A DNA stretch of 64,000 nt from assembly GCA_947450025.1 (NCBI GenBank), contig CANFTW010000006.1, positions 124,001-188,000 on the forward strand, read 5' to 3'. This DNA is from Bacteroidota bacterium. Lineage in GTDB: Bacteria; Bacteroidota; Bacteroidia; B-17B0; Aurantibacillaceae. The translations under genes and the position numbers were made by a program. The notes under the pieces are model-generated. The model was not told where the DNA came from, searched no databases, and saw only the letters and a program-made list of their open reading frames with translations. This document shows positions 22,361-52,911 of this stretch, piece by piece. Each line of letters starts with the position of its first letter. The stretch's first letter is position 1.

Positions 22361-22406
22361 GTGAAATAAATTAAACAGACACAATATGTATTTCAAATTT
22401 ACAAGA

Positions 22407-25400
22407 ATGAAAAAAAGCAATTGGCTCTTAGCCTTGACTTTTTTCGCTGTTGTCTTTACTGGCAACTTGATGGCGCAGGTAGATGTGACTTCCTCGGGAG
22501 GAACGGCTACGGCATCGTACACCACATTGAAAGCGTCTTTTGATGCGATTAATGCAGGTACGCACACTGGTACAATTGCTATCAGTATTTCTGCAAGTAC
22601 AACCGAAACAGCTTCAGCAGTTTTAAATGCGAACGGTTCAGGTAGTGCTAGTTTTGCAAACGTTTCAATCAGTCCTAGTGGAGGTGCTGCAAGAACCATT
22701 ACAGGTTCAGTTGTTGGCCCATTAGTTGATTTTAATGGAGCAAGTAATGTAACCATCAATGGTTTAAATACCGGAGGTAACGCATTAACTATTTCGAATA
22801 CAGCTACTGGAGCTTCGAGTACAATTCGTTATTATAATGATGCGTCTAACAACACGGTTACTAATTGTACATTATTAGGTTCATCAACTACTTTAGGAGT
22901 TGTGTATTTTGGAACAAGTACTGGTACATTAGGTAACTTGTCTAATACAGTGTCTAATAACAATATTGCTGCAGCTGGTGCAAATAGCCCTTTAACAGGC
23001 ATTTATTCTGTTGGTCAAAGTGCTTTAATTGTAAACAGTGCAACAGTTTCTTCAAATAATATTTACGATTATTTTAATGCTGCCGCTTCTACAAGTGGTA
23101 TTTTTATTGGTGGTAATAATAATGCTTGGACGATTACTGATAATAAATTATACCAATCTGCAACAAGAACGTATACAACTGCTAATACACATTATGGTAT
23201 TAACATTACATCTGGTGCAGGCTATGTAATTACAGGAAATACCATTGGTTATGCTAATAACAGTGGAACAGGTACAACAAATGTTGTTGGTAACTCAGTT
23301 GCTTTAGCTGGTTTCCCAGGAGCATATGCAACTACTGGTACAGCAAATGCGACACGTTATGTCGGTATTAATGCGGCTTTTACGGCGGCTGGCTCAACTT
23401 CTTCTATCCAAAATAATAAAGTGGCTAACATTGCAATTTATACATCAAGTGGTGCAACTACCACTAATGGTATTTTAGCTGGTATTGTGGTAACAAGTGG
23501 TAATGTTAACATTGGTACAGTGCAAGGGAATACGATTGGTGCTACAACTGGTAATGGTTCATTATACTCTGCTTCTTCAACAGCTGGAGGTTTAATTTCC
23601 GGTATTTATGTTACTTCTTCTAATACCGTTACTATTAAAAACAATACAGTAGGTGCTATTGATGCAACTGGTAATACTTTAACGACTTTATCAGGAAGTA
23701 TTAGAGGGATTGATGTAACAGGAATAGGTAACTTCTTAATTACGAATAATACCATTGGTAATTCTACAGCAAATAACTTAAGAATGGGTAACCTTTATAC
23801 TGGGGTATCTTTATCTAATGCAGGAACCACTTTTACAACGTCTACAGGTGCTAGTGTATTTGTTGGGATAAACAGTTCAGTAAGTGGAACTATTACTATT
23901 GGTACAGTTGCTGAACCTAATACGATTAGAAATGTATTTGTGAATTCAAATAGTGCTAGTGCTTTATTTAAAGGTATTGCTTCTAGTTCAGGTGTTTCAA
24001 ATATTTCTGGTAATAATATTAGTAATATTAATTCAAATAGTGCTTCTGTTTCTACAGGCAGTGGGGTTTTATCTGGATTAGGTATTTATTTAAGTGGTGG
24101 TACTAATCCAGTGATTAGTTCAAATACCATTTCTAATTTAGCTTTATTAAACACTGGAACAGGTGGTTTTACTTTAGGAGGTATTAGTTATACATTCCCA
24201 ACGACCTCTATTACGATTACTAAAAATAAAATTTACGGATTAACATCTGCAGGTACAGGAACTACTGTTACTGCTCCTCCTACTGTATCAGGTATTTTTG
24301 TGCGTGATGGTGGCGGCGCAACTGCTAATATTAGTAATAACATGATCTCTTTAGGGAATGGTCAAGCAACTAATACAACCTTTATGGGGCTTTGGTTGCA
24401 ATATTCATTCTCTACTGTAACAACCATGAATATTTTACATAATTCCATCAATATTGAGGGAACTGTAACAGCAGGGGCTTTACCAACTTTTGGTTTATAC
24501 AGAGGAGATTTCTCTGCTACTGCGGTAACTACTTATGTGATGAATGTAAAAAATAACGTTTTCAGTAATACACGTAGTGCTGGTACAGGTACTCACGTGT
24601 GTATTGCTAATAACTATGGTGCAACGGCTAGTGCAACTAACTGGGGTACTAATGCATCCGATTACAACTTTTATAATACCGTAACAGGTAATCCTAACAT
24701 TGGTTACTGGACATCTGCTCAAACTTTTGCAGGTTGGAAAACAGCCTCTTTAAGTGATGCAAACTCTCCAACAGCCTCTACTAGCGCTAACCCTTTCCCA
24801 TTATTTAATGCTTCTGCTACTGGTGATTTACATGTTAATCCGTCTGTGGCAACAGTGATTGAATCCGGTGGGGTGAGTGGATTAATAACTTCTGATGATA
24901 TTGACGGTAATATTCGTCAAGGATTTGCAGGCTATACTGGTGCAGGTTCAGCACCAGATTTAGGAGCTGATGAATTTGCAGGGATTAGCCCAGCGCCAGT
25001 AATTAATGGTGTTGCTATTTCTCCATTAGGTAGTTCATGTTCAGCTATCTCTCGTTTAATTTCTGCAACTGTAACTCCAGGTGCAGCGTCTTTAACATCG
25101 GTAACTTTAAATTATTCATTTAATGGAGTGGCTCAAACACCAATCACAATGGCTGGTGGTAACTTAGCGGCTGGTTCAACATGGACAGCGACTATTCCAG
25201 CAGCTGTTCCTACAAATGCTAGTGTGGCTTGGTATGTTACTACTACTGATGGAACATATAGTAAAGCGTCTAATACATCATCTTATTCTGATGCAACTGC
25301 CCTTAATTATGTGGCAACAGCTTCAGTAACTCCAAACCCTGTTTGTGAGGGCGGTGTTGTAACTCTACAATATAATTTACTAGGAACTAGTACAGCTACT

Positions 25401-28400
25401 TATTGTGCGATAGCAGCGGCTACTTCAGCATTATCTTATTTTGATGCCTTTACCACAACCGGTGCGGTTTCAAATATTAATAATACAGCTACTGGATTTT
25501 CAGTGGGTGGTTATGCAAACTACACTAACTTAACTGTTTCTCAAAAATTAGGACAAGCAGTTAGCTTTAATACCTTACTACAAGGTACAACAGTTGGTGT
25601 GGCTATTTGGGTAGATTGGAATCAAGATGGAATATTTGATCCTTCAGAAAGAATGTACAATACGACAGGATATGTTTCAACAGCAGCAGGTACTTTTACT
25701 GTTCCTGCAACAGCGAAGTTAGGAACAACTCGTATGAGAATTTTAATGGATTATAATGCGTCTAATCCAGCAGCACCTTGTGGTCCATTTGCTTCTGGTG
25801 GAAGAGGTGAAGCGGAAGATTATACCTTCTTAGTCTTGCCTTCAACAGTTTCTTATGCTTGGACAGATGGTGTCACAACATTCACTGCAGCAACTAATTC
25901 ATCAACTTTAACTGTAAATACTTCTGCAACTTATACTGCAACAGCATATTTAGATGGATGTCCTTTAGCAACAACAGTTCAAGTAAATGTAACACCATTA
26001 CCTTCGTTACCAATTGTAACGAATATTGGTCAATGTGGTTTGGGAGTTTCTCCTTCAAATGTAGTGGGTGGTGCATCTTATAATTGGTATGCAACGCCAA
26101 CTTCAACAACGGTATTACAAAGTGGTGCAAGTTCGACCTATACAACTGCGGTTGGTGCAACCACTACTTGGTATGTGACCTCAGTAAATGGTGCTTGCGA
26201 AAGTTCACCAAGAGTAGCGGTTACTGCTTCAGTGACTTTACCAGATGCAGTTAATGCAGCATCTAGTGCTTCTTTATTATGTGTGGGTGGTTCAAATGCT
26301 ATTACCTTAACAGCGAATCAAGTTGGAACAAATAACGCTTATAGCTTTACTTGGACAGCAACTCCAGCTGTAGGTAGTGGTATGGCAACTTCAGTAACAG
26401 GTCAATCAGTAGTGATTACTCCAACAACGGTTGGTACTTATACTTATAACGTCATAGCATCTGATGCAGTATGTACGACTTTATCAAGTGTAGTCGTTAC
26501 CTTAAATGCTTTACCTCAACTGTTAACTTCAGCAACTCCTTCAGTAGTATGTTCTGGTGCTAGCGTGAATTTAAATGCTACTAACGCTGTTATTGCTCCA
26601 GGAACTGCCACAAGTGGTAATGGAACTTCATTGACTTCAGCTTATGGTTATCCAACAGCTTTTGGTAATTACTGGTACCAAACATGGCAACAGTATTTAT
26701 TTACAGCGGCAGAATTAAATGCCATGGGTATTACAGCTGGTAACATTACATCTTTATCATTTAGTATTGCAGCTCTTCCAATTCCAAATCAAGCGATTAC
26801 AGATTACAATATAAAAATCGGATCTACAGGAAATACAGCTTTATCAGCTTTTGTAACAGCTGGTTTAACTAATGTATTTGGACCTGCTACAAAAACAGCG
26901 GTATTAGGTTTAAATACCATTACATTATCAACGCCATATTATTGGAACGGAACATCGAATTTGGTAATTGATTTAAGACAAACCGAATTTTATGGCAGTG
27001 GTAACGCAACGACGTATTATACGACAACTCCAAATAACTCGGTATTGTATGCTTATGCAACGACTTCAAATGCTAACTATTGGACATCTAGTCCAGCGCC
27101 TACTGCTTCAACTAGCCGTCCAAATATTATTTTTGGTGCTCAGATTCAAACTCAAGGCGCTGGTAATTTAGTATGGCAATGGAATCCAGGTGCAATTAAC
27201 AGTAACACAGCAACGGTAGTAGTTACTAATACAACTGCCACGGCGGCAACTCAAGTATTTACTGTTACAGGAACTAATACCTTAACTGGATGTTCAAATA
27301 CTGGCACAACAAGTGTGGTAGTTAATGCTATACCCACAACTCCAGTAGCAGCCAACTCTATTCAATGTGGTATAGGTGTTCCTACAGCATCAGTGAGTGG
27401 CGGTACCTTATATAATTGGTATGCAACACCAACTTCTACAACTGTATTGCAAACTGGTTCAGTAGCTAATTTTACCACATCTATTAATTCAACCACTACT
27501 TGGTACGTTGAGTCTGTGAGTCCAGAAGGATGTTCTAGTCCAAGAGCTGCAGTAACAGAAACAGTGAACATTCCTAATTTAGTGACTGCAAGTACAAGTT
27601 CATCATCACTTTGTGTGGGTGGTGCTAACGCGATTACGTTAACAGCTAATCAAACTGGTTCAACAAATAACTACAATTTCACGTGGACAGCAACTCCTTC
27701 AGTAGGAAGTGGTATTACAACTTCTGTTAATGGACGAACAGTATCTATTACTCCAACAACGGTAGGAACATACACTTATAATGTAACTGCTATTGATGGT
27801 ATTTGTACAACTTTATCAAGTGTGGTTGTGAGGTTAAATGATCTTCCTCAAATCATTGCTTCTTCAAACCCATCTGTGGTTTGTTCAGGCTCTAGCGTTA
27901 ATTTAACAGCTACGAATGCTGTTATTGCTCCTGGGCCTGCAGCAGTTGGTACAGGAACAGCGCTTACTTTATCATATAGTTATCCAACAGCTTTTGGTAA
28001 CTACTGGTACCAAACATGGCAACAGTATTTATTTACAGCAGCTGAGTTAAATGCGATGGGTATGACTGCAGGTAACATTACATCTTTATCATTCAGTATT
28101 TCAGCTTTACCAAATCCAAATACTCCAATAACGGATTATAACATTCAAATTGCTCCAACAAGCAACACTGCTTTATCAGCTTTTGTAACAACTGGTTTAA
28201 GTAACGTATTTGGACCTACAACTGTAACAGCAGCAGCTGGTTTAAATACCATTACTTTAGCAACGCCTTACAATTGGGATGGTGTATCTAACTTAGTAAT
28301 TGATTTAAGACAAACAGAATTTTATGGTAATGGAAATGCAACAACGTATTATACCACTACTCCAAATAACTCTGTATTGTATGCTTATGCAACGACTTCA

Positions 28401-31400
28401 AATGCTAACTATTGGACATCTAATCCAATACCAACTACTTCTACTAGTCGTCCAAATATTATTTTTGGTGCGCAAATTCAAACACAAGGAGCTGGTGGTA
28501 TTTCATGGCAATGGAATCCAGGTGCAGTCAATAGTAATACAGCTACTGCTGTAGTTACAAATACAACTGGTACTGCAACTACTCAAGTGTTTACAGTAAC
28601 AGGCACTAGTACAGTGACAGGTTGTGTTAATACTGCTACGACTAGCGTATTAGTAAATGTAGTTCCTAATACAGCCATAGCAACTAACTCTACTCAATGT
28701 GGTTTAGGTGTTCCAACAGCTTTTGTAACAGGTGGCACATCATACAATTGGTATGCAACACCAACGTCTACAACTATTGTTCAAGCAGGTCCTTTTAATC
28801 ATATTACAAGTCCAATTAACACAACCACAACTTGGTATGTGAATACATTTAATGGATTATGTGAAAGTTTAATTAGAACAGCTGTGACTCAAACGGTTGT
28901 TGTGCCAGATGGAGTTACTGCAGTAACAACATCATCAGCAGTATGTCCAGGTACAACCTATACATTATCTTCAGCTAACACTGGTACAACAAATGTGTAT
29001 GCGTATTCTTGGTCAGCATCTCCATCTGTAGGAAGTGGAATTTCTTCTACAACTCCAGGTGCAAACGTAGTTTTAACTCCAAATACGCCAGGAACTTATG
29101 TATATAATGTGACGGCAACAGATGGTTTCTGTACAACCACTAAAACAGTAAGTGTATTAGTAAATGCAGTTCCTGATTTAGTAGCAACAGCAAGTCCTTC
29201 TATTATTTGTTCAGGTACATCGGTGAATTTAAATGTACAAGCAAACAATGCTACTCCAGGTTTGGCAACTGTTGGTTTCCAAGGTGGTTCAACAACTATT
29301 AATGGTTCTCCATACAGACAAGGTGCTGGAACAACATTAGAGCAAAAAGCACAATACTTATTTACAGCAGCTGAGTTAAATGCTTATGGTATTTACCAAG
29401 GTAACATTACAGATATCAGTATTAACGCTTTAACAGCAGGTAGCGGACAAATGGATAACTTCATTATTAAAATGGGCGCAACAACGGCTAGTTCTTTAGG
29501 AACAACCTATAGTTCTGCAGCATCAACTTTAGTATATGGTCCTTATTCATACTCTGTTACTGCAGGTCAAAATACACACACCTTTGATACACCATTCTTC
29601 TGGGATGGTAACTCAAACGTTGTGATTGAAATTTGTCATGATGCTGTGAATCCATTAGGAGTAAGTAGTAATGTTGTTATTGAAACAACATCTAATAAAG
29701 TAATTACTTCTACTATTTTAGGAGCTTGTTCAGCAACTGTTGGGACTGCAACTACTAACCGTCCACAAATTACATTTGGTGCTCAAGTTGGTTCTGATAT
29801 CACAGGTTCTATGAATATTTTATGGAATCCAGGTGCAATCACCACCAATACAGCATTAGTAACGCCATTAAATACAGGTTCTGTTGTCTCTACTCAAGTG
29901 TATACAGTATCGGTTAATAATCCAGCTACGACATGTTCTAGTATTAAAACAGTAGCAGTAGTGATTAATCCAATCCCTACTACACCAGTAGCTGTAAACT
30001 CTGCACAATGTGGTGTGGCTGTTCCAACAGCATCAGTGTCAGGTGGTACAGTTTACAATTGGTATGCAACGCCAACAGCTACAACCGTATTACAAACAGG
30101 TTCAAGTTCTCACTACACAACCGCAATTAATAGTACAACATCTTGGTATGTGACTTCTATGAATACAGCAGGTTGCGAAAGTCCTAGAGCTACTGTAACA
30201 ACTTCAGTAACTGTTCCAGATGCAGTATCAGCATCAGTAGCATCAGCTTCTGTTTGTCCAGGTACTAACGCAACTTTAATTGCAACTCAAACAGGTTCAA
30301 CTAATGTATATGTATTTACTTGGACAGCATCTTCAGCTACAGGAAGTGGTATTTCAACTTCAGTAGTTGGTAGTTCAGTAAACATTACACCAAGTACATC
30401 TGGTAACTATAACTATACGTTAACAGCATCAGATGCTGCAGGTTGTATAGCAATTAGCACCACATCATTAAATGTGTTTGTAACGCCTACATTAACAGCA
30501 ATTTCAGCTGCTCCAACAACATTATGTTCTGGTAATACAGCAACTTTATCAATCTCTGCAATTTCTCCGGGAACTGTAGCAGTAGGTACTGGTGTAACAA
30601 CACAAGGCGGTTCTGGTCTTTCTCCTTATGCTCAATTCTGGGAAGGTCAAAGAACACAGTATTTATTTACAGCGAGTGAATTATCAGCAATGGGCTTAAG
30701 TTCAGGAAATATGTCAGCGATATCATTTAATGTGACATCTGCTCCAGCAACCTTACAGTTTACAAATTACGCTATCAAAATGTACCATACTTCAGCAACT
30801 GATTTAGTAGCATCGTATGCGTCACCTAGTAGCGCGGTAGTAAACGTATTTGGTCCAGTAAACTTAGCGCCTCCTGCAGTTGGTTTAAGTACTCATAACT
30901 TTACTAATGCCTTTACATGGGATGGTGTATCGAATGTAATCATTGACGTATGTTTCGAAAATGACCCATTAAGTACAGCTGTCTTATATACAAGTAATGA
31001 TATTGTTGCTGCAACAACGGTAACTGGTTTCACATCAGTGAGAGGGGATTATCAAGATAACTCTTCTTTATGTAATACAGCGAACGTTGGTATTTCAGCA
31101 ACAAGTACAATTAGACCAAATGTGATTTTCTTAGGAAATACCATGACAGGTTCAAATGTAGTGAACTGGTCTGCAGGGACAACACCAGCAGGAACAGGTT
31201 ATACCATTACATCGACACCACCAGTAACATCGGTTTATACAGCAACGTTAACAGATTCTCATTCTTGTGCAGTTGTATCTAGCCCTGTAACATTAACAGT
31301 TAATGCTACTCCAACAATTACAGCGGTTGCTTCTAGCCCTTCTGTTTGTGCTGGATCAACAGCAACGTTAACAGCTACTGGTGCAACTAACTATACTTGG

Positions 31401-33230
31401 ACTTCGGGTGGAACAACTTCTACAGAAGTTGTGACTCCTTCAACAGCATCTGTTTATACAGTAACTGGTGCTAGTTTAGGTTGTGTAAGTTCAACCACTG
31501 TTGGAGTTGGTTATAATGTTATTCCTACAGTGGCTGTAAATAGTGGTTCTATTTGTTCAGGAAACAACTTTACCATTACTCCAACTGGAGCATCTTCCTA
31601 TTCATATTCTGGTGGTTCAGATGTAGTGTCTCCATTAACAACTACAGATTATACGGTTACAGGTACAACAGCAGGATGTTCATCAACTGCAGTGTCAAGT
31701 GTATCAGTTAGTACAACACCTACTATTAGTTTATTGTCAGGAGGTATTTGCCCAGGTGATTCTTATACAATTACAGCATCAGGAGCAGATACTTATACAT
31801 ACTCTAGTGGTTCAGCTGTGGTTACTCCAGTTGCTACAACATCTTATTCCGTTACTGGTTCAAATTTAGATGGTTGTATCGGTAATACTGCCGTCACAAC
31901 AGTAACTGTGTCTTCTGTATTAATATTTAATGTTAATAGTGGAGCAGTTTGTGCAGGTAATTCATTTACTATGTCACCTGTTGGAGCAGCAACTTATACA
32001 TACTCTAGTGGATCAGCAGTAGTAACACCAAGCGCATCCTCAGTATATACAATTACTGGAGCAAGTGCTTCAGGTTGTTTAGGTACCGCTACAAGTTCTG
32101 TAACAGTTAATGCTTACCCTGTCGTAACTGTAAATAGTGGTGCTATTTGTTCTGGAAACAGCTTTACAATGATACCATCAGGTGCAACAACTTATTCTTA
32201 CTCTAGTGGTTCTGATATTGTTTCTCCAACTGCAACCACTTCATACACTGTAACAGGTGAAACGGCAGGATGTGCAACAGACGCTGTAAGTTCAGTAACT
32301 GTTATTGCTCTTCCAGTTGTAACAGCAGCTTCTTCAAATACATCCATTTGTATTGGTAATTCAGCAACTTTAACTGCAGCGGGTGCAACTAACTATACTT
32401 GGACTTCAGGTGGAACTGCTTCTACGGAAACAGTAACTCCAACAAGTGCTTCAGTTTACACGGTAACTGGTGAATCTAATGGATGTTCTAACATTGCTAC
32501 AGTGGCAGTCAATGTTTCTACAGTGATACCTACAGTAACCGCAGTTTCTTCAAGTTCAGCAGTTTGTGCTGGTTCATCAGCAACTTTAACTGCAGGTGGA
32601 GCTAACGCTTATACTTGGTCAACTGGAGGAAATGCAACCACTGAAGTAGTTACTCCTTCAACACCTTCTTCTTACACTGTGACAGGTGATTTAAATGGAT
32701 GTACTAACACTGCAATTGTTTCGGTTGGTGTTAATCAAGGGCCTACAGTTACAGCATCAGCATCACAATCTACGTTATGTTTAGATGGAAGTAATGGCCC
32801 TTCAATTTTAACAGCATCTACAACAGCTAGTGCTTATACATGGTCAAATGGAGCTAACACGTTAACAACTTCAGTAACACCTACATTAACTACAACATAC
32901 ACAGTAACTGCTACACAGGCTGGTTGTTCAAGTAATGCACTTGTTACAGTAACTGTATTTGATTGTACAGGTATTAAAGAGTTAACAAATGATAACATTA
33001 GCATCTTCCCTAATCCAACAAATGGTATTGTAAACATCTCTATCTCTTATGAGTTAGCTGGTAATACCTCAATCGAAGTTTACGATGCAATTGGTAAATT
33101 AGTGATTAAAGAAAACTTAACGAATAATACAAGTACAATTAACTTATCAAAAGTTGAAGATGGTATGTATGTATTCAAAATTATTAACAACAACCGCGCA
33201 ATTAAAATTGGTAAAGTTGTTAAACAATAA
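22407..33230 (+). CDS. Giant T9SS-secreted modular surface protein
   Basis: One uninterrupted frame of about 3607 residues. I prefer the ATG at 22407 because it begins the signal peptide MKKSNWLLALTFF, ending in MAQ; an ATG at 22386 is also in frame. Order of parts: a repetitive N/S/T-rich parallel beta-helix region (about 22530-24960, ending in the DLGADEF block); an Ig-like region; a GEVED domain (about 25401-25830, ending GEAEDYTF); four tandem modules of about 440 residues from 26031; eight Ig-like repeats of 65-72 residues (31309-32963); and a type A sorting tail (FPNPTNG, then the VYDAIGKLV and DGMYVFKI blocks). The tail predicts export by T9SS and attachment or release at the cell surface. 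It is likely an adhesin or matrix protein; ligand unknown. The gene is monocistronic. Confidence 0.9.
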   Translation: MKKSNWLLALTFFAVVFTGNLMAQVDVTSSGGTATASYTTLKASFDAINAGTHTGTIAISISASTTETASAVLNANGSGSASFANVSISPSGGAARTITGSVVGPLVDFNGASNVTINGLNTGGNALTISNTATGASSTIRYYNDASNNTVTNCTLLGSSTTLGVVYFGTSTGTLGNLSNTVSNNNIAAAGANSPLTGIYSVGQSALIVNSATVSSNNIYDYFNAAASTSGIFIGGNNNAWTITDNKLYQSATRTYTTANTHYGINITSGAGYVITGNTIGYANNSGTGTTNVVGNSVALAGFPGAYATTGTANATRYVGINAAFTAAGSTSSIQNNKVANIAIYTSSGATTTNGILAGIVVTSGNVNIGTVQGNTIGATTGNGSLYSASSTAGGLISGIYVTSSNTVTIKNNTVGAIDATGNTLTTLSGSIRGIDVTGIGNFLITNNTIGNSTANNLRMGNLYTGVSLSNAGTTFTTSTGASVFVGINSSVSGTITIGTVAEPNTIRNVFVNSNSASALFKGIASSSGVSNISGNNISNINSNSASVSTGSGVLSGLGIYLSGGTNPVISSNTISNLALLNTGTGGFTLGGISYTFPTTSITITKNKIYGLTSAGTGTTVTAPPTVSGIFVRDGGGATANISNNMISLGNGQATNTTFMGLWLQYSFSTVTTMNILHNSINIEGTVTAGALPTFGLYRGDFSATAVTTYVMNVKNNVFSNTRSAGTGTHVCIANNYGATASATNWGTNASDYNFYNTVTGNPNIGYWTSAQTFAGWKTASLSDANSPTASTSANPFPLFNASATGDLHVNPSVATVIESGGVSGLITSDDIDGNIRQGFAGYTGAGSAPDLGADEFAGISPAPVINGVAISPLGSSCSAISRLISATVTPGAASLTSVTLNYSFNGVAQTPITMAGGNLAAGSTWTATIPAAVPTNASVAWYVTTTDGTYSKASNTSSYSDATALNYVATASVTPNPVCEGGVVTLQYNLLGTSTATYCAIAAATSALSYFDAFTTTGAVSNINNTATGFSVGGYANYTNLTVSQKLGQAVSFNTLLQGTTVGVAIWVDWNQDGIFDPSERMYNTTGYVSTAAGTFTVPATAKLGTTRMRILMDYNASNPAAPCGPFASGGRGEAEDYTFLVLPSTVSYAWTDGVTTFTAATNSSTLTVNTSATYTATAYLDGCPLATTVQVNVTPLPSLPIVTNIGQCGLGVSPSNVVGGASYNWYATPTSTTVLQSGASSTYTTAVGATTTWYVTSVNGACESSPRVAVTASVTLPDAVNAASSASLLCVGGSNAITLTANQVGTNNAYSFTWTATPAVGSGMATSVTGQSVVITPTTVGTYTYNVIASDAVCTTLSSVVVTLNALPQLLTSATPSVVCSGASVNLNATNAVIAPGTATSGNGTSLTSAYGYPTAFGNYWYQTWQQYLFTAAELNAMGITAGNITSLSFSIAALPIPNQAITDYNIKIGSTGNTALSAFVTAGLTNVFGPATKTAVLGLNTITLSTPYYWNGTSNLVIDLRQTEFYGSGNATTYYTTTPNNSVLYAYATTSNANYWTSSPAPTASTSRPNIIFGAQIQTQGAGNLVWQWNPGAINSNTATVVVTNTTATAATQVFTVTGTNTLTGCSNTGTTSVVVNAIPTTPVAANSIQCGIGVPTASVSGGTLYNWYATPTSTTVLQTGSVANFTTSINSTTTWYVESVSPEGCSSPRAAVTETVNIPNLVTASTSSSSLCVGGANAITLTANQTGSTNNYNFTWTATPSVGSGITTSVNGRTVSITPTTVGTYTYNVTAIDGICTTLSSVVVRLNDLPQIIASSNPSVVCSGSSVNLTATNAVIAPGPAAVGTGTALTLSYSYPTAFGNYWYQTWQQYLFTAAELNAMGMTAGNITSLSFSISALPNPNTPITDYNIQIAPTSNTALSAFVTTGLSNVFGPTTVTAAAGLNTITLATPYNWDGVSNLVIDLRQTEFYGNGNATTYYTTTPNNSVLYAYATTSNANYWTSNPIPTTSTSRPNIIFGAQIQTQGAGGISWQWNPGAVNSNTATAVVTNTTGTATTQVFTVTGTSTVTGCVNTATTSVLVNVVPNTAIATNSTQCGLGVPTAFVTGGTSYNWYATPTSTTIVQAGPFNHITSPINTTTTWYVNTFNGLCESLIRTAVTQTVVVPDGVTAVTTSSAVCPGTTYTLSSANTGTTNVYAYSWSASPSVGSGISSTTPGANVVLTPNTPGTYVYNVTATDGFCTTTKTVSVLVNAVPDLVATASPSIICSGTSVNLNVQANNATPGLATVGFQGGSTTINGSPYRQGAGTTLEQKAQYLFTAAELNAYGIYQGNITDISINALTAGSGQMDNFIIKMGATTASSLGTTYSSAASTLVYGPYSYSVTAGQNTHTFDTPFFWDGNSNVVIEICHDAVNPLGVSSNVVIETTSNKVITSTILGACSATVGTATTNRPQITFGAQVGSDITGSMNILWNPGAITTNTALVTPLNTGSVVSTQVYTVSVNNPATTCSSIKTVAVVINPIPTTPVAVNSAQCGVAVPTASVSGGTVYNWYATPTATTVLQTGSSSHYTTAINSTTSWYVTSMNTAGCESPRATVTTSVTVPDAVSASVASASVCPGTNATLIATQTGSTNVYVFTWTASSATGSGISTSVVGSSVNITPSTSGNYNYTLTASDAAGCIAISTTSLNVFVTPTLTAISAAPTTLCSGNTATLSISAISPGTVAVGTGVTTQGGSGLSPYAQFWEGQRTQYLFTASELSAMGLSSGNMSAISFNVTSAPATLQFTNYAIKMYHTSATDLVASYASPSSAVVNVFGPVNLAPPAVGLSTHNFTNAFTWDGVSNVIIDVCFENDPLSTAVLYTSNDIVAATTVTGFTSVRGDYQDNSSLCNTANVGISATSTIRPNVIFLGNTMTGSNVVNWSAGTTPAGTGYTITSTPPVTSVYTATLTDSHSCAVVSSPVTLTVNATPTITAVASSPSVCAGSTATLTATGATNYTWTSGGTTSTEVVTPSTASVYTVTGASLGCVSSTTVGVGYNVIPTVAVNSGSICSGNNFTITPTGASSYSYSGGSDVVSPLTTTDYTVTGTTAGCSSTAVSSVSVSTTPTISLLSGGICPGDSYTITASGADTYTYSSGSAVVTPVATTSYSVTGSNLDGCIGNTAVTTVTVSSVLIFNVNSGAVCAGNSFTMSPVGAATYTYSSGSAVVTPSASSVYTITGASASGCLGTATSSVTVNAYPVVTVNSGAICSGNSFTMIPSGATTYSYSSGSDIVSPTATTSYTVTGETAGCATDAVSSVTVIALPVVTAASSNTSICIGNSATLTAAGATNYTWTSGGTASTETVTPTSASVYTVTGESNGCSNIATVAVNVSTVIPTVTAVSSSSAVCAGSSATLTAGGANAYTWSTGGNATTEVVTPSTPSSYTVTGDLNGCTNTAIVSVGVNQGPTVTASASQSTLCLDGSNGPSILTASTTASAYTWSNGANTLTTSVTPTLTTTYTVTATQAGCSSNALVTVTVFDCTGIKELTNDNISIFPNPTNGIVNISISYELAGNTSIEVYDAIGKLVIKENLTNNTSTINLSKVEDGMYVFKIINNNRAIKIGKVVKQ
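26031..31300 (+). repeat. Four tandem 444-residue modules within the giant protein
   Basis: The marker CAATGTGG recurs at 26031, 27363, 28695 and 30005. The first two intervals are exactly 1332 bp and the third is 1310. Copies 1 and 2 share long identical runs, for example 49 identical bases at 27042-27090 and 28374-28422. Each module holds two Ig-like domains, a third Ig-like domain opened at its first strand, and a roughly 190-residue insert with YLFTAAELNA and a WDG/WNG-type block. Confidence 0.9.
31309..32963 (+). repeat. Eight short Ig-like repeats within the giant protein
   Basis: Each copy of about 65-72 residues reads roughly as P-T-V, a Cys, a G-N-S-x-T-x-T-x-x-G-A motif, Y-T-W/Y-S-x-G, V-T-P-x, Y-T-V-T-G and a second Cys. 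The two cysteines are phased so that one disulfide per repeat is likely. Confidence 0.88.
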
Positions 33231-47244: not shown

Positions 47245-48489
47245 ATGAGTTTACAAGTTAATGTTAAAGATTTGCTATCAAATCTATACTACAATCGTGG
47301 TGTAGTAGAATTGCTATTTGGTCAACGAGACCATATAACAGTAAACGAATTATTGAGCAGAGATGATATTACGGAAGAGCAATACCGTAAATTAGTGTCC
47401 CTAGATATTCTTTACGAATACGAAAATGTGGTAAGCTTAAACGATGCCGTTGTTGCCATGTTCGAAGATTTTATGGAGATTGGTGAAGTAACACCAGGCT
47501 TCATTAATGATTACATCAACGAATTAAAACGTCATATAAAATTCTATCAAGAAGCACGCGAAATGCGATTCTTGCGAAGTATTAAAAAATATTTAAAGCG
47601 TATTAACTCTACTTTAACACGCGAAATTATTAAGCTTCAAAAAAATGTAGATGATACTTACAAAAACGAAAGTAACTACCGCATAAAATTACAAAAGCTA
47701 GAAGATTATCGAGAGAAACGTGATACAATCATTGAATTTATTAAACAAACCAATGCCATCGTTGATGAGACACGTGTGTTGTTTAATATTACTAACGATA
47801 CCGAGTTATTTGGAATTGTATCGTCATTAAAATCAAGTTTAATAGAGAACCTCGATTTCTTAATTGAGATTCAAACAGACATTACAGATTTCATTAATAA
47901 AATTCAGTATCAGTTAGACGTTTACAAAAAAGCACAACGTTTAAAAGAAGTGAAAGATCATGGAACGCTTCACTTTAAAACAAACTTTAGAGAGATTGTT
48001 TCAAACATTAATACCTTAAAGCATAACGGACATAAAACACCTAAAACAAAAATTCCAATTGACTTTTTATACAGTGATGATGGACATGTGTTATGTAAAC
48101 GTATTGCTGAAAAGTATAAGATTACACGTTTAATGGTGCGTGGACTTGCTGATAAAATGGCAGGTAACTTTAAAGAAAAAGGTCTTGAGCAACAAATAAA
48201 ATTAGATACTGAAAAATTAGTTGAACGTTTTTTAACTCAAACAAAATTAAATTTGTTTGAATATTTAATGGAATACAAATTTCCAAAAGCTATTGGAACA
48301 GTGTCGTTTGAAGAACGACTATCCTTATTTGTGGAAATTGCGATGGAATATCAAAATCAGTTGGATTTTAAATATCGTTTACAATATCATGATTATGTAG
48401 AAGCGGTAACAGATATTAAAAAGCGATTAGGATACACCTTGATTCTCCCTTTGAAAGATAAACCAAAAAAAGAAAAAGCAACTAAATAG
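47245..48489 (+). CDS. SMC-associated subunit, MksF/JetA-like (kleisin-type)
   Basis: A 414-residue soluble protein from the ATG at 47245; an ATG at 47224 and a TTG at 47212 are also in frame. The N-terminal 75 residues look like a winged helix (ELLSRDDITEEQYRKLVSLDIL, then a VVSLNDAV wing). Residues 90-250 are long charged helices likely to coil. The C-terminal 130 residues include ITRLMVRGLADKMAGNF and end in a Lys-rich tail. This layout matches kleisin-type partners of MukB/MksB/JetC ATPases, though I see no diagnostic motif. It is the first of three closely spaced genes, the third being the SMC-like ATPase. The assignment leans on size, fold pattern and context. Confidence 0.65.
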   Translation: MSLQVNVKDLLSNLYYNRGVVELLFGQRDHITVNELLSRDDITEEQYRKLVSLDILYEYENVVSLNDAVVAMFEDFMEIGEVTPGFINDYINELKRHIKFYQEAREMRFLRSIKKYLKRINSTLTREIIKLQKNVDDTYKNESNYRIKLQKLEDYREKRDTIIEFIKQTNAIVDETRVLFNITNDTELFGIVSSLKSSLIENLDFLIEIQTDITDFINKIQYQLDVYKKAQRLKEVKDHGTLHFKTNFREIVSNINTLKHNGHKTPKTKIPIDFLYSDDGHVLCKRIAEKYKITRLMVRGLADKMAGNFKEKGLEQQIKLDTEKLVERFLTQTKLNLFEYLMEYKFPKAIGTVSFEERLSLFVEIAMEYQNQLDFKYRLQYHDYVEAVTDIKKRLGYTLILPLKDKPKKEKATK

Positions 48490-48501
48490 AAATTATATAA
48501 C

Positions 48502-49110
48502 ATGGAAGAAACAACCAGTTTTAATTTACCAAAACAAACACATGATATTTTTTCTGTCATGGCTCGTGGAAATTTTATTTCTAGTAATGGAAGTAGAGAT
48601 GGGATGAATCGTTTGTATGATGTGATTAATAATCCTGAAAATTTTGATAGACTTCAGGCTTATTTTAATGTGATTAGATATAACATTGAAAGAGGAAATA
48701 ATTTTTTCTATTTTTCAAAATTAAGTGAACCAAATTCTGAATTAGAGAAGAAACTAGAACGTTTTGAACGTTATATTGATATTATAGATTTGTTTGCTAG
48801 TATGGATAATAAAATTGGTATTGGTAGTCGTTTTCGCCCTAGTGAAATTGCTGAAGAATGTAATGCAAATGTGCGTTTAAAGCAAAAGCTTCAAAAAATT
48901 CCTTTATATCGTTCAGAAACATTACATAATAAAGTTCGAGAAATTTGTGATTTAATGAGCAGAGATTCTTTTTTGGAATTAGAAGATGAAAAATCAGAAT
49001 CTTATAAAGTGTTAGATTCTTATAATTATTTATTGGATGTTATTAATTCAGTAGCGATTTATGAAGATAGTAGTTCTTCGGATGATTCTCAAGCAATCAT
49101 TTACAACTAA
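48502..49110 (+). CDS. SMC-associated small subunit, MksE/JetB-like
   Basis: A 202-residue acidic soluble protein. The N-terminus holds HDIFSVMARGNFISSNG, followed by RLYDVINN and YFNVIRYNIERGNNFFYF, a pattern recalled from MksE/MukE-type winged-helix subunits. Helical segments follow, with an acidic tail (YEDSSSSDDSQ). It begins 12 bases after the kleisin-like gene and ends 57 bases before the ATPase gene. In MukBEF and Wadjet systems the small subunit binds the kleisin and DNA. The call is by size, order and motif resemblance. Confidence 0.62.
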   Translation: MEETTSFNLPKQTHDIFSVMARGNFISSNGSRDGMNRLYDVINNPENFDRLQAYFNVIRYNIERGNNFFYFSKLSEPNSELEKKLERFERYIDIIDLFASMDNKIGIGSRFRPSEIAEECNANVRLKQKLQKIPLYRSETLHNKVREICDLMSRDSFLELEDEKSESYKVLDSYNYLLDVINSVAIYEDSSSSDDSQAIIYN

Positions 49111-49167
49111 TTTATTAAAAATATTAAAGACGTGCGGCCTGTAACAGACAGGATAAATAGATAAAAC

Positions 49168-52100
49168 ATGGAAAATAACTGTAGAATATTAAATAGAATT
49201 GTGCAAATTAACATTGCCAATGTTAAGTATACCGACTTGGAACTTAGTGGTAACACCTGTTTTGTTGGTACAAATAACTTTGGTAAAACATCATTGCAAC
49301 GTGCCATTTTGTTTTTTTATAGCGCTAATACAAGAGGCTTAGGTATTTCGGCCTCACAAAAACCATTTGAAGAGCATTATTTTAAATATGAAAACTCATA
49401 TTTAATTTACGAAATTCAAACTGAAAGTAAACCGTTTTTTGTGATTGTATACCGTCATAATAAATTGGTGTTTCGTTTTGTGGATGCTGAATACAATCCC
49501 GATTATTTCTTTAATGAAAATGATGAGGCGATTAAAATCAAAGAAGTGATTTCTGGATTTGATAAACGTGGTATTTTTGTTTCTCAACAAATTGACACAT
49601 TTGAGCGTTACCGTAATATTTTATACGGTACAGAAACAGATAAGCAATTAACGAGATTTCATTTATTAAAAGGTAACGAAAAATACCAAAACATTCCCAA
49701 ATCAATTACAAATGTATTTTTAAGTTCTAAAAGTAGTATTGATAGTCGTTTCATTAAAGATTTTATTGCTAATTCATTAACTACAGAAAATAGTAGTATT
49801 AAGTTAGAGCAAGTAGATCGCCAGTTACGTCAGTTCAACGAAAAGTATTCGGATATTGAAACATACTTAAAGAAAGAATCTCAACAATTAATTGAGTTTA
49901 TTGATAAAAAGTATGACCAAGTGCATATGTTAAAAGGTGCACAAATGGAAATGGCTGATAAATTGGGAAGTAGCTTACGCTATGCTGAAACTCAAAATGA
50001 AGCGGTTATTAAAGCTTCTCAAGAAAAACAAGAGGAGTTAGATAAATTAACAGAAGCGAACGAAGAGCAAAAAACCTTATTAGAAGAAAAACAAAAAGAT
50101 GTTCGCGAAGAAATTGGATACTATGATAGAACGATTCGTGAGGCTAACAAGAAATTAAAAGAGTACAAAGAAAAAAATATTGAGCAAGCGGTTGAGAAAA
50201 ATGCAGAGAGAGATAAATTGCAAGTTGATTATAATATCGCACGTCGTGAGTATGAATCTTTAACTTCCAATGTTCAAAGTATTGAGATGAAATATTCATC
50301 TTTAATCGAGCAACTGCGCAACGATAAAACAGCTTATGTTAATAAAATCAATTCTCGTACAAGTGAAATTTTTAATCACTATAATGAATTACAATTATTA
50401 CAGAAAAACGAGTTTAATAAGAAAGATGCTGAATTAAAACAAAAGCGTGAAGAAGCTTTAACTGAGTTGAATTCAGAAGTCACTTCAAAGCAAATTGAAT
50501 TTAATGAGTTAAAAGCGGAAGAAAAAGTTATTCGTAATACGCGTTTTTATGAAACTGAAATTAAAGCTCAAGAAACGGAGTTAGCAGATTTAAGAGCCAT
50601 TAATTATAAAAACAAATCTGAATTAGCGATTAAAACTAATTTGGTTCAAACCAACCAAAAAGAGTGGGAAGGTTTAGAGTCAAAATTAAAATTATCCTTA
50701 TCTAATCAAATACAAAAAACCAATAACGAAATCATTCGTGTTAAAACGGAGATTAAATCGATTGAAGAAAAATTAAACGTTCAACACGATGCCTTATATG
50801 GTTATTTAGAAAAGAACGTTAAAGATTGGCATAATACTATTGGTAAGGTTGTAAACGAAGATTTATTATTCCGTACAGATTTAAATCCAACACTGACTGA
50901 TGATAAAGGATTATCGTTATTTGGTATTTCTTTAAAATTAGATGATGTTCAAGTGGTTTCTAAATCTATTGAAGTTTATCAATTTGAAAAGAATGAGCGT
51001 TTAGCGATTATTAGAGATTTGGAAGAGTCGATGACTCAGTTCCAAACAGCTAACAACGAAGAAAAAATGTTGGCTGCTGATAAATACGGCAAGCAATTAG
51101 GAGAGTTAAAAGAAGATTTAAAAGTATTAACTTACTCATTAGAGTTAGCAGAAAAACGTGAAAAGAAATTAATATTAGAATTAGAAGACTGGAAGCAACG
51201 CGCAAGCACAGAAATCGAGCAATCTTTATCTGGTAACCGTCAAAAATTAAATATTATTGAAGAAGAGTTAGCGATCTTAAATAAAAAGAAAAATAATTTA
51301 TTAAATGATTTCAATACTCAATTCGATAAATTAAAAGCTTTTAATGATGAGCGTTTAGCTGATTTAAAATCTCGTCAAGAAACGGAGATTTCTGAATTAG
51401 AAGTTGAGAAAAAAAATCAAGTAAAAGAATACGAAGAAAAAGAAGTTCAGTTAAGTAACGAAAAAGAAACAAACTTCAAAGCTAAGGGTGTAGATAGTAA
51501 AGAGATTAAAAAAATTGACGCTCGGATTAAAGAATTACAAGAAGCTTTAAAAGAGATTGATCAGTATTCACAGATAGTGAGCGATTACTTAAAAGATAAA
51601 CGTGAAATTTTTGATAAACTTCCTGATTTAATTCAGAAAAAAGAAGAGTACGTAAAATCTGCCAATGATTTAAGTGCTGAGATAGAAGAGGTGTCTCGTA
51701 AGTTTAATATTAAACGCATGGAGTTGAATAAACAAAAACGTGCGTTTGAAGAAGAGCTAATTGAGTTTAATAATGGTATTAATTACTTTACGAAAAATTT
51801 CCGTGAAACTCCTGTATTCAATAAGTATGCAGATATCATTGATAGAGCAGAACCAAAGAAAACGAATTATAGCGTGATGGATTTGTGTACACAACTCCTT
51901 AAAAATGATTCTCACTTTAATGAGGAGTATACAGCTTTCCAACGTTATGTAAATGAGTTCGCCGGTAAATTTAGATTAGAGAATCACTTTAACTTCATCA
52001 TTCGTAATGATGCAACTCAAGGCGAATACGAACGTTTTGCACAAAACTTACGTTCATTTATTAATGAAGCGAAAATCGAATTATCAATCGCAGAAACAGC

Positions 52101-52854
52101 TACTCAAATTGGCTTAGTAACAGATAGTATTGCCACCAAAGTGCGTGAGTTAAGTGGACAAAAAGATAAGATTCAACATATTATTACTTTAATTGCAGAA
52201 GACTTTAAAAAAGCGGAGTTTGAAGAGTCGAAATTAATTGAGTTCATTAAAATTCGTCTAGAGGATTCTGATAATAAAGTTTACAAATTATTAAAACGTA
52301 TCCAGGAGTTTCGTGAAGAAAATGGCCTGGTATATAACGAAGGATTATTTAACACTGATTTTGCAACACATAAAAATCGTGAGATAAGTAATCGTGCTGT
52401 TAAATTATTAGATCAGTTACGCACTGCAATTAAAGAACAAGAGCAAGAAGAAATTCGTTTACAAGATTTATTTGAATTGAAATTCAACATCAAAGAAGGT
52501 TTAAATGAAACTGGTTGGACACACAAAATAGATAGTATTGGTAGTACAGGAACAGATATCCTTGTAAAAGCAATTATCTATATTACGTTGTTACATGTAT
52601 TTATAAAAGAGTCTTCTCATCGTGGTAGTTCTGATTTTAAAGTACATTGTATTATAGATGAGGTAGGTCAAATTTCGGCGCATTACTTGCGTGAATTATT
52701 ACGTTTTGCGAAAAACAGAAACATTATGATGATTAATGGTTTACCAAATAAATCAGGCTTGGAGGCACATTATAAATACACATATCAATTTAGAAGAGAA
52801 GAAAATAACAACGTTCGTATCTTCCCAAGTATTGTAACTGAAGTAGAGGCTTAA
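49168..52854 (+). CDS. SMC-like coiled-coil ATPase (MksB/JetC type)
   Basis: A 1228-residue DNA-translocating ATPase with SMC layout. The N-lobe of the head has Walker A GTNNFGKTS at 34-42. The first coiled-coil arm runs about 250-540. A small globular element at about 543-604 (LYGYLEKN, then VVNEDLLF and LFGISLKLDD) should be the hinge. The second arm runs about 605-870. The C-lobe contains an ABC-signature-like SIGSTGTDI near 1123 and Walker B with CIIDE (Asp1164, Glu1165). Such ATPases form dimers with kleisin and small subunits and extrude DNA loops, in condensins or in plasmid-cleaving Wadjet defence. No JetD-like nuclease follows; a strong terminator and a convergent transporter do. Whether it acts in chromosome upkeep or defence is open. 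Confidence 0.85.
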   Translation: MENNCRILNRIVQINIANVKYTDLELSGNTCFVGTNNFGKTSLQRAILFFYSANTRGLGISASQKPFEEHYFKYENSYLIYEIQTESKPFFVIVYRHNKLVFRFVDAEYNPDYFFNENDEAIKIKEVISGFDKRGIFVSQQIDTFERYRNILYGTETDKQLTRFHLLKGNEKYQNIPKSITNVFLSSKSSIDSRFIKDFIANSLTTENSSIKLEQVDRQLRQFNEKYSDIETYLKKESQQLIEFIDKKYDQVHMLKGAQMEMADKLGSSLRYAETQNEAVIKASQEKQEELDKLTEANEEQKTLLEEKQKDVREEIGYYDRTIREANKKLKEYKEKNIEQAVEKNAERDKLQVDYNIARREYESLTSNVQSIEMKYSSLIEQLRNDKTAYVNKINSRTSEIFNHYNELQLLQKNEFNKKDAELKQKREEALTELNSEVTSKQIEFNELKAEEKVIRNTRFYETEIKAQETELADLRAINYKNKSELAIKTNLVQTNQKEWEGLESKLKLSLSNQIQKTNNEIIRVKTEIKSIEEKLNVQHDALYGYLEKNVKDWHNTIGKVVNEDLLFRTDLNPTLTDDKGLSLFGISLKLDDVQVVSKSIEVYQFEKNERLAIIRDLEESMTQFQTANNEEKMLAADKYGKQLGELKEDLKVLTYSLELAEKREKKLILELEDWKQRASTEIEQSLSGNRQKLNIIEEELAILNKKKNNLLNDFNTQFDKLKAFNDERLADLKSRQETEISELEVEKKNQVKEYEEKEVQLSNEKETNFKAKGVDSKEIKKIDARIKELQEALKEIDQYSQIVSDYLKDKREIFDKLPDLIQKKEEYVKSANDLSAEIEEVSRKFNIKRMELNKQKRAFEEELIEFNNGINYFTKNFRETPVFNKYADIIDRAEPKKTNYSVMDLCTQLLKNDSHFNEEYTAFQRYVNEFAGKFRLENHFNFIIRNDATQGEYERFAQNLRSFINEAKIELSIAETATQIGLVTDSIATKVRELSGQKDKIQHIITLIAEDFKKAEFEESKLIEFIKIRLEDSDNKVYKLLKRIQEFREENGLVYNEGLFNTDFATHKNREISNRAVKLLDQLRTAIKEQEQEEIRLQDLFELKFNIKEGLNETGWTHKIDSIGSTGTDILVKAIIYITLLHVFIKESSHRGSSDFKVHCIIDEVGQISAHYLRELLRFAKNRNIMMINGLPNKSGLEAHYKYTYQFRREENNNVRIFPSIVTEVEA

Positions 52855-52870
52855 TTTATCCAAAATCTAA

Positions 52871-52911
52871 AAAAGCCTGCTCAATACACATTGGGCAGGC
52901 TTTTTTTATAA
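52871..52911 (+). terminator. Terminator of the SMC-like cassette
   Basis: A 15-bp stem (52871-52885 with 52890-52904, one T-G pair) has loop ACAC and a run of seven Ts. It starts 16 bases after the ATPase stop. Confidence 0.9.

Follow-up and report, generated by a model that had tools for sequence, protein, structure and literature searches.

MksBEF has been described as a sporadic complex that usually accompanies Smc-ScpAB or MukBEF (PMC7485682, PMC12153180), and in P. aeruginosa it takes part in organising the chromosome (PMC7485682, PMC10586767). Hi-C work on gut bacteria found no known condensin in two Bacteroidetes, caecimuris and M. intestinale, and led to the proposal of unidentified SMC complexes (PMC10197239). 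Our literature search, which did not reach the 2011 paper that named MksBEF, found no paper that describes Bacteroidota with MksBEF as their only condensin.

The locus analysed here lies in the window, a stretch of 64,000 nucleotides of Bacteroidota DNA, in which positions 47245-52854 hold three forward-strand genes, in the order F-E-B, for a kleisin, a KITE protein and an SMC ATPase. The first, mksF (47245..48489), whose ATG start was fixed by alignment with relatives, encodes a 414-aa MukF-like kleisin with an N-terminal winged helix, long helices and a C-terminal winged-helix region; mksE (48502..49110) encodes a 202-aa MukE/JetB-like KITE protein, and mksB (49168..52854) a 1228-aa MukB/JetC-like SMC-type ATPase. 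The intergenic gaps are 12 and 57 bases, and the ORF coordinates agree with the compact three-gene cassette noticed in a sequence-only reading of this DNA. The Walker A motif GTNNFGKTS (MksB residues 34-42; 49267..49293) and the Walker B motif VHCIIDEV (residues 1159-1166; 52642..52665) were found where that reading had placed them; G39, K40, D1164 and E1165 do not vary among 16 diverse MksB sequences, and neither do S1126, G1128 and T1129 of a signature-like motif, IGSTGTD (residues 1124-1130; 52537..52557). The hinge-like element, earlier drawn at residues 543-604, was located on sequence grounds only at about residues 536-600 (50773..50967), between two charged coiled-coil arms; it carries fewer charged residues than the arms, and is conserved between the window clade and its nuclease-bearing relatives. 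Downstream, an intrinsic terminator with a 17-pair stem and A/T flanks (52869..52906; fold -23.3 kcal/mol, z -8.5) is common to the cassette and to a convergent TauE/SafE gene (TauE 164 bits), and upstream lie the divergent fhs (formate-THF ligase; FTHFS 851 bits) and BshC genes. Fold energy and profile matches are in accord with the earlier description of a strong terminator and of flanks in which no nuclease gene adjoins the cassette. A promoter scan returned 33 sites against 32.4 expected by chance, a chance-level result, as would be expected of a consensus unsuited to Bacteroidota. Elsewhere in the window, an ORF of 3614 aa occupies positions 22386-33230.

Pfam DUF3584 matched MksB end to end (residues 23-1195, 217.5 bits) and Pfam MksE matched the KITE protein (108.6 bits), while MksF had no Pfam match. 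When searched against the PDB, a profile of the 16 diverse MksB sequences matched MukB (9gm6, E 7e-9) and also the isolated MukB head (3euj); single-sequence searches with MksB and MksF gave nothing useful, and profile searches with MksF and MksE found no useful match among PDB sequences. An AlphaFold2 model of MksF of moderate quality (pLDDT 72.6, pTM 0.39) had as its best PDB matches the MukF chains 9gm7, 7nz2, 1t98 and 3euh (best E 1.2e-4), with Wadjet JetA (8as8, 8dk2) also within the top ten; this assignment follows the ranking of matches rather than superposition, and the low TM-scores may reflect the extended shape of the chains. The MksE model best matched MukE and Wadjet JetB (9gmb, 8as8, 7nyw, 8dk1). 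The window cassette accordingly combines an SMC ATPase of the DUF3584/MukB kind with a MukE-type KITE protein and, by its predicted model, a MukF-type winged-helix kleisin. This fits the MksBEF-like condensin proposed in the sequence-only reading, and places the ATPase with DUF3584/MukB, not in an unrelated coiled-coil family, the outcome that the reading had offered as evidence against itself. PADLOC Jet models gave no significant match to the window proteins (JetB E 0.0097, JetC E 0.062, none for JetA), and a phage collection contained no relative of the cassette.

Compared with known systems, the window complex resembles P. aeruginosa MksBEF as a three-part MukF/MukE/MukB-like complex that lacks a nuclease and is thought to act on the chromosome; that MksBEF, however, is a second condensin beside Smc-ScpAB, which is absent here, and belongs to another sequence group. 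With E. coli MukBEF it shares the F-E-B gene order, the kleisin and KITE folds and the replacement of Smc-ScpAB, but sequence similarity is very low and the window ATPase is shorter (1228 versus about 1480 residues). Wadjet JetABCD/MksBEFG has the same three structural subunits and includes the nearest sequence relatives (~29% identity); unlike Wadjet, which is sporadic, the window type is a core gene set, and neither the window locus nor its 62 named relatives have the Toprim nuclease JetD/MksG in the operon. Smc-ScpAB presumably has the same cellular role, but its ATPase, kleisin and KITE proteins are of other families than those matched by the window proteins, and it is missing from the window lineage, no ScpA or ScpB being found in the genome.

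Window-type MksB was detected in 36 of 37 genomes searched in the family, almost all of them metagenome-assembled, at 59-99% identity, and the single genome that lacks it is 76% complete. By contrast, profile searches of the same 37 genomes found ScpA and ScpB in none and no full-length Smc, the SMC_N matches being only RecF- and RecN-sized proteins. A 939-aa ATPase match on contig C1 was considered as a Smc-sized candidate and rejected because it resembles UvrA in sequence. The ScpA, ScpB and SMC_N profiles score 110-190 bits in other families of the class, and four class members with ScpAB have an Smc of about 1180-1200 aa. As judged by profile search, MksBEF is the only detectable condensin of the family, and the earlier suggestion of a second condensin beside Smc-ScpAB was not borne out.

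A scan of named genomes retrieved 62 window-type loci, nearly all from uncultured Bacteroidota; the window relative in UBA5697 (NCBI lineage 'unclassified Bacteroidota') is 99% identical. None of these 62 loci was matched by any of three JetD-type profiles, so that the lack of a neighbouring nuclease, first noted at the window locus, extends to the neighbourhoods of its relatives. The F-E-B order is kept in window-type loci, with other genes sometimes intervening, and in one genome (G027) ~93 kb of a single contig separates mksE from mksB; the family keeps all three genes despite changing flanks and this occasional separation. At eight loci in genus relatives an ORF of ~335 aa lies between mksE and mksB, where the window genome has only its 57-base gap. 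It was considered as a nuclease and rejected, having no nuclease profile match and a signal-peptide-like start. In the closest pair (window versus UBA5697), dN/dS was 0.0095 for MksB, 0.015 for MksF and 0.036 for MksE, against 0.105, 0.082 and 0.046 for the neighbours BshC, PpiD and TauE, and in a second pair (L240) it was 0.019 for MksB and 0.063 for Fhs; these ratios are rough because dS is near or above 1, and protein identities rank the genes in the same order. On these sequence comparisons, MksBEF shows the profile of a core gene under extreme purifying selection.

The genome contains one other MksB-type protein and no more: an ATPase at C6:3242-6913, 29-30% identical to window MksB and encoded in an operon of four genes together with an MksF-like protein, an MksE (135.8 bits) and a 285-aa JetD-like protein (JetD_C 22.7 bits, DUF7281 38 bits). 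By its predicted gene content, this is a complete Wadjet-type JetABCD operon. Within the surrounding region (C6:1-14000), the operon is preceded by AbiE-like genes and followed by genes for a large serine recombinase and tRNA-Leu, and it probably sits on an integrative element. The short JetD_C/DUF7281 nuclease of this operon has weak scores with standard defence models. An armed-type, nuclease-bearing operon in another genome (G026) has a broken ATPase gene, and an intact window-type set lies elsewhere in that genome.

These observations bear directly on whether the window complex might serve in defence, still recognising small circular DNA but either silencing it with no cut or relying on a nuclease gene located elsewhere. 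Such a role would suit the fact that outside the family its nearest relatives are nuclease-bearing operons of the Wadjet type, and a JetD-like gene is present in the genome. That gene, however, the only one found, belongs to a separate operon that has ABC genes of its own, which argues against reliance of the window set on a distant nuclease, as the sequence-only reading had entertained; of the contrary evidence that the reading had named, a JetD-like nuclease encoded elsewhere, the gene itself is there, but with a separate operon and motor. JetD_C is above cut-off in just 3 of the 37 family genomes; it is a weak detector of the C6-type nuclease and missed the example in G026, and therefore a lone divergent nuclease could escape detection. 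Nevertheless, near-universal presence and a dN/dS of ~0.01 are unlike a defence gene, and the PADLOC Jet models barely score, so that we regard a defence role as quite unlikely. It could also be argued that the window complex is a specialised second condensin beside a main condensin that escaped detection, since MksBEF usually co-occurs with Smc-ScpAB or MukBEF (PMC7485682). Against this, the profiles that perform well elsewhere in the class find no Smc-ScpAB in the family, and the only other MksB-type protein of the genome belongs to the Wadjet operon; this arrangement is considered very unlikely.

The window MksBEF is very probably the resident, MukBEF-like housekeeping condensin of the chromosome in this family, because it is near-universal there, Smc-ScpAB is absent, dN/dS is low, the ATPase motifs are intact, no nuclease adjoins and the folds are MukF- and MukE-like; these bacteria probably have no other chromosome organiser. 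The class survey described below, in which nuclease-free MksBEF and ScpB do not coincide, and the precedent of P. aeruginosa MksBEF point the same way. By homology to MukBEF/MksBEF, MksB dimers would be joined by MksF and MksE, and the assembly would entrap and extrude loops of chromosomal DNA at the expense of ATP. The chromosome would in this way be organised and segregated without DNA cutting, MksBEF filling the role that Smc-ScpAB plays in most bacteria and MukBEF in E. coli.

Regarding the origin of the complex, the phylogenetic tree recovered the window clade as a single group (100/100) adjoining a nuclease-bearing group, to which the closest relatives outside the family belong; the tree does not give the ancestral state. 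A placement of the window clade within the nuclease-bearing one was not obtained, as the tree leaves the two as neighbours. Nested loss of the nuclease was seen only in other lineages: a nuclease-free locus (G163) falls together with a nuclease-bearing one from Phocaeicola (100/100), with Parabacteroides distasonis as the next neighbour (100/99), and from these groupings the loss appears clearer in the G163/Phocaeicola lineage than in the window clade. The Parabacteroides distasonis locus (NZ_OY725754.1, 44130-55729) encodes nuclease-free MksF, MksE (148.7 bits) and MksB (199.5 bits), with a convergent NAD synthase gene coming next. Its contig is labelled a plasmid, yet carries gcvT and glutamine synthetase, core metabolic genes, and is therefore probably chromosomal. 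Persicobacter psychrovividus has one nuclease-free and one nuclease-bearing version.

The survey was extended to a class sample of 296 genomes, in which the neighbourhoods of about 100 loci were read; MksE was above cut-off in 92 genomes, ScpB in 74 and JetD_C in 17. At least one locus without an adjacent nuclease was found in 63 genomes of 13 families, and ScpB in none of these 63 (expected ~16), as against 8 of the 20 genomes that have only nuclease-bearing loci. The mutual exclusion of nuclease-free MksBEF and ScpB has a Fisher p of 1e-9 by genome, the genomes not being independent, and of 0.02-0.03 when counted by family (0 of 13 with ScpB); some of it may be due to common ancestry. Left out of this test were six MksE-positive genomes whose loci are cut or unclear, along with three genomes of family f2; with f2 included p is 2e-6. 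The f2 genomes carry ScpB together with MksB-like proteins that have degenerate ATPase motifs, and their MksF is short or was not found. It is to be noted that loci were assigned by HMMs built from the same surveyed loci, and therefore divergent nucleases could be missed. Neither MksBEF nor Smc-ScpAB was detected in about half of the sample (roughly 140-150 genomes), where a broad MksB profile, with two candidates scored per genome, also found no MksB; thus, a condensin may be dispensable in these bacteria, or divergent ones may have been missed.

The MksB sequences of the class fall into a window-plus-Wadjet cluster, a short group (880-900 aa, B-F-E order), a third group (1056-1287 aa, with one entry cut at 825), the classical type I JetC and some small groups, and nuclease-bearing and nuclease-free loci are both present in each of the first three. 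Among six short-group loci, a few genomes have a JetD-like gene between mksB and mksF, which departs from the FEB-G order usually seen. As a broader proposal, toward which we lean only somewhat, Smc-ScpAB is gone across several Bacteroidota families and has been replaced by nuclease-free Wadjet relatives, domesticated more than once, that would be the missing condensins of the phylum, with domesticated and armed versions together in the present genome.

Set against the sporadic occurrence described for MksBEF, the nuclease-free version analysed here is found in nearly every genome searched of a family from which Smc-ScpAB is absent. The MksBEF groups offer concrete candidates for part of the condensin gap in Bacteroidetes (PMC10197239), and since a nuclease-free locus occurs in the culturable Parabacteroides distasonis, the question is testable. 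The presence in one genome of a core, nuclease-free complex and a nuclease-bearing one, probably on an integrative element, provides a natural pair for comparison, which bears on how an SMC motor switches between housekeeping and DNA destruction.
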